Assembly: GCA_013359135.1 (NCBI GenBank)
Contig: JABWCN010000018.1
Span: 1 to 64,000 of the forward strand
Length of the DNA stretch: 64,000 bases
Direction of reading: 5' to 3'
DNA from: Pseudobdellovibrionaceae bacterium
Lineage (GTDB): Bacteria > Bdellovibrionota > Bdellovibrionia > Bdellovibrionales > Bdellovibrionaceae
This document shows positions 57,131 through 61,091 of the stretch, piece after piece. Position numbers and translations under genes: made by a program. Positions within the stretch are counted from its first letter, which is position 1, and the number at the start of each line of letters is the position of its first letter. A model generated the notes under the pieces. That model saw nothing but the letters and a program-made list of their open reading frames with translations. It made no database searches and was not told the DNA's origin.

Positions 57131-58210
57131 TTAAGCCGTTTTTTTGCCACCATTAGTTGAGAGTATTGAGCCTGGTTCAGTGTCTTTACCCAAAAAAGTT
57201 TTGGCATCAGTTGGGGATACTTTGCCTTTTTTAACCAAATCTTCGATGTACTTCTCAAATGTTATCATTCCTTGAGCGTGACCAGTTTGCAATGCTGAAG
57301 GAATTTGATGAATTTTGCCTTCGCGAATTAGATTAGCGATGGCCTTTGTGTTTTTTAAAATTTCATAAGCGGCTACGCGACCCTGGCCATCAGCTCGAGT
57401 AAATAAAGTCTGGGCCACTACACCACGCAAACTTTCTGATAGCATAGTTCGAATTTGCGATTGTTGGCTAGAAGGAAAAACGTCGATGATCCTGTCAATT
57501 GTTTTAGCTGCGTTGTTTGTGTGTAAAGTTCCAAAAACAATGTGCCCAGTTTCTGCGGCCGTAAGAGCTAGAGAAATAGTTTCTAAATCACGCAACTCGC
57601 CCACAAGCAAAATATCAGGATCTTCTCTTAGAGCTGCTTTTAGGGCATTTGCAAAAGATTTAGTGTGGGATCCAACTTCCCGTTGATTGACGATACATTT
57701 AATATTTTGATGAACAAACTCAATAGGATCTTCCACGGTGATGATATGCGACTCAGAGCTCATATTAATCTCGTGTATCATAGCTGCTAAAGTTGTGGAT
57801 TTCCCCGACCCGGTTGGGCCTGTGACTAGAATTAAACCACGATCGCAATCAATCAGGTCCATAATTCCTTGTGGGATATTCAGCTCTTGTGCTGATTTTA
57901 TTTTTTCTGGTATAATTCTAAATACAGCGGCCAAGCCTTTTCTCTGCATGAAAACATTACAACGAAATCTTGCAACACCTGGCAAAGTATAAGCGCAATC
58001 TAGTTCCCACTTTTCTATAAATGATTTTTTTTGTTTTTCAGTCAAAATTTCAAACAAAAGACCTTGGACTTCTTGGCTGGAAAGTTCTTTGTAGTTAAGT
58101 GCAGTCATTTTTCCATGTAGTCTAAGAAAAGGTGGAGCTCCACTTGTTATGTGCAAGTCTGATGCATTTTGTTCAACCATGATTTTAAATAAATCATCAA
58201 TTGCAGCCAC
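57131..58210 (-). CDS. pilT: Type IV pilus retraction ATPase PilT
   Basis: PilT depolymerises type IV pilin to retract the pilus. The 359-residue length and the motifs fit: Walker A GPTGSGKST, the Asp box DPIEFVHQ, Walker B (PDILLVGELRDLET) and the His box GHIVFGTLHTN. Translation starts at a GTG with TTAGGAG upstream. No other pilus genes adjoin. In predatory bdellovibrios type IV pili are needed for prey entry, so a role there is plausible (inference). Confidence 0.97.
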   Translation of the reverse strand: MAAIDDLFKIMVEQNASDLHITSGAPPFLRLHGKMTALNYKELSSQEVQGLLFEILTEKQKKSFIEKWELDCAYTLPGVARFRCNVFMQRKGLAAVFRIIPEKIKSAQELNIPQGIMDLIDCDRGLILVTGPTGSGKSTTLAAMIHEINMSSESHIITVEDPIEFVHQNIKCIVNQREVGSHTKSFANALKAALREDPDILLVGELRDLETISLALTAAETGHIVFGTLHTNNAAKTIDRIIDVFPSSQQSQIRTMLSESLRGVVAQTLFTRADGQGRVAAYEILKNTKAIANLIREGKIHQIPSALQTGHAQGMITFEKYIEDLVKKGKVSPTDAKTFLGKDTEPGSILSTNGGKKTA

Positions 58211-60026: not shown

Positions 60027-60060
60027 CATCGAGCTTAATCCCGTTCTTGGAGGTACAAAA

Positions 60061-60651
60061 ATGTACGCAGTTATTCGTACTGGTGGTAAACAATATACAG
60101 TAAAACCCGGAGATGTTCTACAAGTTGAAAAATTAGAACAACAACTAGGATCTGAATTTAAAATTGATGAAGTTCTTCTTTTAGGTGGAGACGTTACTCA
60201 CGTTGGTCAACCTTTAGTTAAAAATGCAACTGTAACTGTTGTGGTAACTAAACAAGCTAGAAGTCCGAAAGTTATCGTTTTTAAAAAGAAAAGAAGACAT
60301 TCTTTTAGAAAATTCAAGCATCACAAACAACCTTTTACAGAATTATTCGTGAAAGCGATCACTTCTCCAGAAGGAAAAACTGAAACTACAGAATTACAAC
60401 CTAAAGTAGTAGATGTGGCTCAAACTAGGCAGCAAAGAGTACAAGACAAAGTAGCTACTAGAAAAGCTAAAGTTGAAGCTAGAATTAAAGGTGGTTCTGC
60501 TGCTGAGGAAGAATCAAAAAAAGCAGTAAGTAAGAAAAAAACTACAGCTAAGAAAGTTACAAAGAAAGCGGTTACTAAAAAAGCCGTTACAAAAAAAACA
60601 GTAACTAAAAAAGCTGGAGCAAAAAAAGTAACTAAAAAAGCAACTAAGTAA
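60061..60651 (+). CDS. rplU: 50S ribosomal protein L21 with Lys-rich histone-like tail
   Basis: L21 binds 23S rRNA in the large subunit. From the ATG at 60061 (GGAGG upstream) the product is 196 residues, about twice the usual 103. Residues 1-101 are normal L21 (MYAVIRTGGKQYTVKPGD to FTELFVKAI). Residues about 102-150 are a charged linker. Residues 153-196 are Lys/Ala/Thr/Val repeats of five (TKKAV, TKKTV, TKKAG) like histone H1. An in-frame start at 59986 exists but is weaker. It is followed 35 bases later by rpmA, the standard partner. Confidence 0.93.
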   Translation: MYAVIRTGGKQYTVKPGDVLQVEKLEQQLGSEFKIDEVLLLGGDVTHVGQPLVKNATVTVVVTKQARSPKVIVFKKKRRHSFRKFKHHKQPFTELFVKAITSPEGKTETTELQPKVVDVAQTRQQRVQDKVATRKAKVEARIKGGSAAEEESKKAVSKKKTTAKKVTKKAVTKKAVTKKTVTKKAGAKKVTKKATK

Positions 60652-60686: not shown

Positions 60687-60947
60687 ATGGCATCGAAGAA
60701 GGCTGGCGGTAGTACAAAGAACGGTCGTGATTCACAGAGTAAAAGATTAGGCGTTAAAAGATTTGGTGGCGAGACAGTTCAAGCTGGAACTATTATCGTT
60801 AGACAAAGAGGAACTAAATTTAATCCTGGTAACAATGTAAAAGTTGGAAGAGATTGGACAATTTATTCTGCAATTGAAGGCGTTGTAAAATTTGAAAGAG
60901 CTACTAAAGATAAAATGAAAATCTCTGTTTATCCAAAAACAGCGTAA
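60687..60947 (+). CDS. rpmA: 50S ribosomal protein L27
   Basis: L27 reaches the peptidyl transferase centre. The 86-residue protein has the signatures [20 protein letters not shown], then GVKRFGG, and [16 protein letters not shown]. The N-terminus shows no cleaved extension of the firmicute type. A terminator follows about 60 bases later. Confidence 0.98.
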
Positions 60948-61037: not shown

Positions 61038-61091
61038 TGTAAAAGGGGTTTATCTAAAAAACTCTTTTATGTTTTATAGTTGGTGGAATAT

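Follow-up and report, generated by a model that had tools for sequence, protein, structure and literature searches.

Lysine-rich extensions on ribosomal and other proteins

Ordinary bacterial bL21 proteins share with the protein described here a core of 100 residues and the gene order rplU-rpmA-obgE, but the solved chains are mostly only 94–115 aa in length and are without such a tail. Longer forms occur in the Bacteroidota. In a solved ribosome structure (PDB 7jil, chain R, 147 aa), which we take to be that of Flavobacterium johnsoniae, and in the bL21 of a Bacteroidetes MAG (L065, 163 aa), the L21 core is followed by a Lys/Ala-containing C-terminal extension, as it is here, and similar tails exist outside the order Bdellovibrionales. 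These extensions are shorter than the present tail, that of 7jil is richer in acidic residues, and since the phyla are distant, shared descent is not to be assumed. C-terminally extended L21 proteins are also represented by the models NF008916 and NF008915 (PRK12278). Matches to these reach residues 179 and 172 of the present protein, but at 85.1 and 81.2 bits they fall well short of the respective cut-offs of 193 and 281, so that it belongs to neither family.

Outside bL21, the mosquito ribosomal proteins RpS6 and RpL23a are reported to carry lysine-rich, histone H1-like extensions that evolved independently (PMC11764897). They resemble the L21 tail in being lysine-rich, low-complexity additions to a ribosomal protein, and differ from it in that the organism is eukaryotic and other ribosomal proteins are involved. 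The Lys-rich H1-like domain of AlgP from Pseudomonas aeruginosa is reported to bind DNA and polyanions (PMC9239181). Like the L21 arm, this is a disordered Lys/Ala-rich repeat domain, but it consists of proline-rich KPAA repeats on a non-ribosomal protein, and its repeat number is a hot spot of change in clinical isolates, unlike that of the L21 arm (PMC9239181). No description of the L21 tail was found among the open-access papers listed for L21/bL21 extensions, lysine-rich tails and Bdellovibrio; one may exist outside them. Lysine-rich or H1-like extensions on ribosomal proteins are already known in kind (mosquito, Bacteroidota).

The rplU locus

The window, i.e. the whole stretch of 64,000 nucleotides analysed from a Pseudobdellovibrionaceae bacterium, carries rplU on the forward strand (nt 60061–60651) as one unbroken open frame, from the ATG at 60061 to a stop codon ending at 60651. 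Its translation is a bL21 of 196 aa, the single L21 match across the source genome, and a Shine-Dalgarno-like GGAGG (nt 60049–60053, forward strand) lies 7 bases before the ATG. PF00829 matches residues 1–100 with 116.5 bits (cut-off 27) and TIGR00061 residues 2–100 with 92.1 bits (cut-off 43.7). Because both matches stop at residue 100, the core (residues 1–101, nt 60061–60363) ends at about residue 100–101 and leaves a tail of 95–96 residues, in agreement with an earlier note on this DNA. That note had also described the frame as continuous and rpmA as following normally, and both statements hold: rpmA (ribosomal protein L27, by open reading frame and L27 profile search) occupies its usual position at nt 60687–60947 on the same strand, and the order rplU-rpmA-obgE is completed by a frame at 61080, the start of which is probably 61092. 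Profile searches placed L27 behind L21 in 96 of 98 loci of the family and order, the two misses being genome G011 (see below) and a contig end. No Rfam match was found between positions 58000 and 62500 at the gathering threshold.

Anatomy of the tail

As modelled, this bL21 is made of three parts, namely the usual core, a linker with a single helix, and an arm of some 45 disordered residues, nearly half of them lysine. The AlphaFold2 model (mean pLDDT 70.7, pTM 0.55), for which the alignment was shallow at five sequences, shows the L21 core, then a helix at residues 119–144, and no structure from residue 146 on. The linker (residues 102–150, nt 60364–60510, forward strand; predicted helix at nt 60415–60492) has block pLDDT values of 85, 88 and 89 over residues 111–140, and contains fixed points at which the commonest residue is found in nearly all of 63 family sequences (V116, 94%; D118, 98%; R123, 98%). 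In the arm (residues 151–196, nt 60511–60648, forward strand) and just before it, pLDDT is below 50 at residues 146–191 and 193–195.

The tail holds 26 Lys, 4 Arg and 9 Asp/Glu in 95 residues. Lysine makes up 44% of the last 45 residues, compared with 27% in the runner-up among 59 stop-to-stop frames of at least 120 aa in the window. The five-residue repeat units read earlier from the translation were recovered by Tandem Repeats Finder as a 15-base unit at nt 60556–60614 (score 69), together with a 30-base, or ten-residue, unit at nt 60556–60641 (score 95). Within the last 50 residues there are 14 Lys-Lys pairs at a distance of 5 (z 4.4 relative to shuffled versions of this segment) and a weaker excess at a distance of 4 (z 2.3); spacings of 4 and 5 are likewise over-represented in the last 50 residues at genus, family and order level. 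The repeats are AAA-rich, as had been remarked, AAG accounting for just 15% of the lysine codons in the window's tail.

The description of the tail as histone H1-like stands for its composition and not for family membership. From pLDDT it is predicted to be disordered in nearly all of residues 146–195, and by composition it is lysine-rich and strongly positive, as an H1-like tail should be. The tail alone scores 13.6 bits with HC2 (PF07382, cut-off 40) and 14.5 bits with the H1-like DNA-binding protein model NF038053 (cut-off 80), below the cut-off in both models matched, and the HC2 profile found no match across the whole source genome at E values up to 1.

The longest homopolymer in the tail is a run of eight A (nt 60591–60598, forward strand). 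A programmed frameshift at this run was considered and rejected: both alternative frames meet stop codons inside the tail, so no long frameshift product would result.

Distribution and length among relatives

Of 66 family genomes, two gave no L21 match; the L21 loci of the other 64 were all read. In 63 of the 64 the tail is 72–108 aa long (median 88) with a net charge of +16 to +26, and in 6/6 genomes of the genus it is 95–96 aa, which goes against the earlier suggestion that the repeats are prone to change in length between strains. The family genome G008, for example, has an L21 of 187 aa (L080) with the tail present. The remaining locus, in G011, lies in a visibly misassembled stretch. Here (about C1:103229-104030 of a one-contig genome) the L21 tail leads directly into the latter half of L27; a natural L21-L27 fusion (L081, L188) was rejected, as the adjoining obgE carries a mosaic-end word, which is presumably sequencing adapter, between duplicated flanks, and the join is a probable assembly error. 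G011 was left out of the family residue and charge statistics and the dN/dS pairs, which use 63 sequences.

Among 45 genomes sampled from the order outside the family, the tail is at least 50 aa long in 39 and 17–35 aa in six, and two further members of the class have tails of 68 and 74 aa. Residue, Lys-spacing, GC3 and pooled-pair statistics draw on the 34 higher-scoring genomes among these 45; the other 11 contribute to the length counts alone. Tail-less close relatives with a frameshift at codon 102 are unseen in the 111 genomes with L21 read (64 family, 45 order and 2 class), and the earlier reading of the tail as a real in-frame extension, as opposed to a frameshift artefact, is supported. 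The six short-tailed L21 genes (L112, L115, L121, L231, L236, L239) end at an ordinary stop codon, and five of them are from genomes of 1.2–2.1 Mb. Larger genomes in the order tend to have longer tails (Spearman 0.58, n=45, from rounded genome sizes). As six of 45 order members manage with 17–35 residues, ribosomes as such can function without the arm.

Further out, 42 sequences from the phylum, mostly the best-scoring among the matches listed and not a fair sample, comprise 30 of at least 130 aa and 12 that are shorter, several of which end at the core. Many of the longer ones have a different segment, KTLGSRK, before a short Lys/Ala-rich end (many of L035, L037, L039-L054, L057-L058 and L062; phylum families f16 and f20).

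Selection on the tail

Among 16 disjoint close pairs, the Lys arm had a dN/dS of 0.097 (bootstrap 0.061–0.138), the core one of 0.126 and the linker one of 0.256. When 210 overlapping pairs were pooled, the values in the same order were 0.078, 0.086 and 0.250. In low-complexity sequence such estimates depend on the alignment, and most of the close pairs are from two genera. Comparison of the window's L21 with five congeners gave pN values of 0.24–0.27 for the arm and 0.05–0.14 for the core, with a core pS of 0.56–0.61, i.e. with synonymous sites near saturation. The letters of the arm drift over longer times, and its lysine pattern is kept.

The lysine content is independent of GC3. In 94 of 97 sequences, which span GC3 values of 0.14–0.72, the Lys+Arg share over the final 50 positions shows no correlation with GC3 (rho -0.015), three short tails having been dropped. 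AAG use tracks GC3 (rho 0.49), and Thr+Val+Ser of the tail end falls as GC3 rises (rho -0.31).

Long runs of A are also rarer than expected. When synonymous codons were shuffled within each of 19 tails, one per genus, 16.8 runs of at least eight A were expected, and only one was observed, the window's own A8 at 60591; none of the 19 tails has a run of nine or more. Runs of at least seven are barely fewer than expected (39 observed, 46.5 expected). The L21 core has no run of at least eight where 7.6 were expected, whereas the avoidance is absent in 45 other window ORFs of at least 150 aa (23 observed, 18.9 expected). Slippage is likely to be costly in a highly expressed rplU, and this cost would include the tail. 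Because of the low dN/dS of the arm, the independence of lysine from GC3 and the avoidance of A-runs, the tail is very likely translated and under selection.

Possible roles of the arm

Comparative sequence data show a tail that is in frame throughout the family and in most of the sampled order, that is under purifying selection and that avoids long A-runs. For its function we give about even weight to the reading that the arm is a flexible polycation on the 50S subunit which binds nucleic acid, RNA being the likelier partner than DNA; this draws on the sequence, the structural model and analogy with AlgP. The L21 core would seat in the 50S subunit as usual, and the tail would be made in full and stay on the ribosome. 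Held there by the core, the arm could reach nucleic acid through its charge, probably RNA in the form of its own or neighbouring rRNA, or mRNA. The interpretation in the earlier note is partly supported: the extension is real, in frame and H1-like in composition, whereas its supposed contact with rRNA, mRNA or DNA and a second role for L21 are hypothetical.

A nucleoid tether, with the arm attached to DNA so that ribosomes are kept on the surface of a compact nucleoid, is possible though on balance unlikely. It is worth testing because a review places the ribosomes of B. bacteriovorus along the edge of its packed nucleoid (PMC10225642). The composition of the arm resembles that of H1-like DNA-binding domains, albeit with weak matches, and further Lys-rich proteins are encoded in the same genomes (see below). 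Against this, the main text of a paper on a B. bacteriovorus histone mentions neither 'ribosomal protein' nor 'L21' nor 'RplU' (PMC10627809), and compact nucleoids are not known from most of the order. A passage search of a paper on the B. exovorus life cycle found no information about where ribosomes lie in the predator (PMC11055950).

Removal of the tail after synthesis, leaving ribosomes with a normal short L21, is improbable. Disordered Lys-rich protein ends are easily proteolysed, which would allow it, but the purifying selection and the avoidance of A-runs through the arm would then need another reason.

More improbable again, and already disfavoured, is a neutral by-product, in which AAA-rich repeats expanded in AT-rich DNA and were tolerated at the end of the protein. 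The low complexity, the tandem repeats, the drift of the exact letters and some change in length between genera are what such an origin would give. It is opposed by the low dN/dS of the arm, by a lysine content independent of GC3, by the near-constant tail length (95–96 aa) among the six congeners, and by an avoidance of A-runs that is seen in the tail and L21 core and not in the other 45 ORFs of the window. Least to be expected is that the arm binds another polyanion such as polyphosphate and not nucleic acid: the Lys-rich domain of AlgP is needed for the spacing of polyphosphate granules (PMC9239181), but AlgP is a different protein and the present data hold no link between L21 and polyphosphate.

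Other lysine-rich proteins

A second GroES (Cpn10) is found in the family. Of 34 loci read, 33 have a Lys-rich extension at its N terminus, about 80–129 aa long and with a net charge of about +24 to +41, start residues being approximate (source genome, G000:C3:10740-11021 and the part upstream, L179; relatives, L242-L261 and L278-L290). A candidate ATG, GTG or TTG after an SD-like word opens the extension in 13/21 loci. A small sample of three disjoint close pairs gives the extension a dN/dS of 0.20 and the core one of 0.05. In a 2012 paper on GroES2 of strain HD100 (Bd3349), the repetitive stretch was set aside and an internal start preferred, giving 117 aa, and groES2 was reported to be expressed late in predation (PMC3464611). 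Since the extension is conserved, the longer form is favoured, and the published reannotation is probably too short.

The source genome also encodes a lysine/alanine protein of 24 residues, MAKKKAAKKATKKKATKKKAAKKR (G000:C18:12840-12911; L178, L191), behind a GGAGG site and with what appears by eye to be a hairpin and T-run downstream. It is present in 6/6 genomes of the genus, and four other genera each contribute a single genome with a form of 19–24 residues, so that 10 of 66 family genomes have it (relatives' loci, L190 and L192-L199). A further small protein (G000:C59:20500-23500, L181) begins with a signal-peptide-like stretch and ends in a very Lys-rich one, KKGKKKSKKSKH.

With the arm as query, a composition-corrected search of the source genome at E values up to 10 returned only the arm itself. 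A search for spaced pairs of Lys codons at the DNA level matched 77 places on the forward and 52 on the reverse strand. The reversed pattern matched 55 and 51, so that most of these places are due to chance. Ten stretches, picked by eye among the matches listed, were examined. It is conceivable, if distinctly unlikely, that the Bdellovibrionales share H1-like lysine arms as a tag on unrelated machines (bL21, the second GroES and the free 24-residue protein), with which these would dock on RNA or the compact nucleoid. Such a tag is suggested by composition and co-occurrence, as no sequence search ties the other proteins to the L21 arm. Were it real, the ribosome itself would be a nucleoid-surface complex.

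Implications for the ribosome of this group

A polycationic arm on the 50S subunit, conserved within close pairs to much the same degree as the L21 core, would mean that the ribosome surface is specialised in this group. As the group includes Bdellovibrio, whose ribosomes have been described as lying along the edge of the nucleoid, the arm may bear on how ribosomes are placed relative to the nucleoid.
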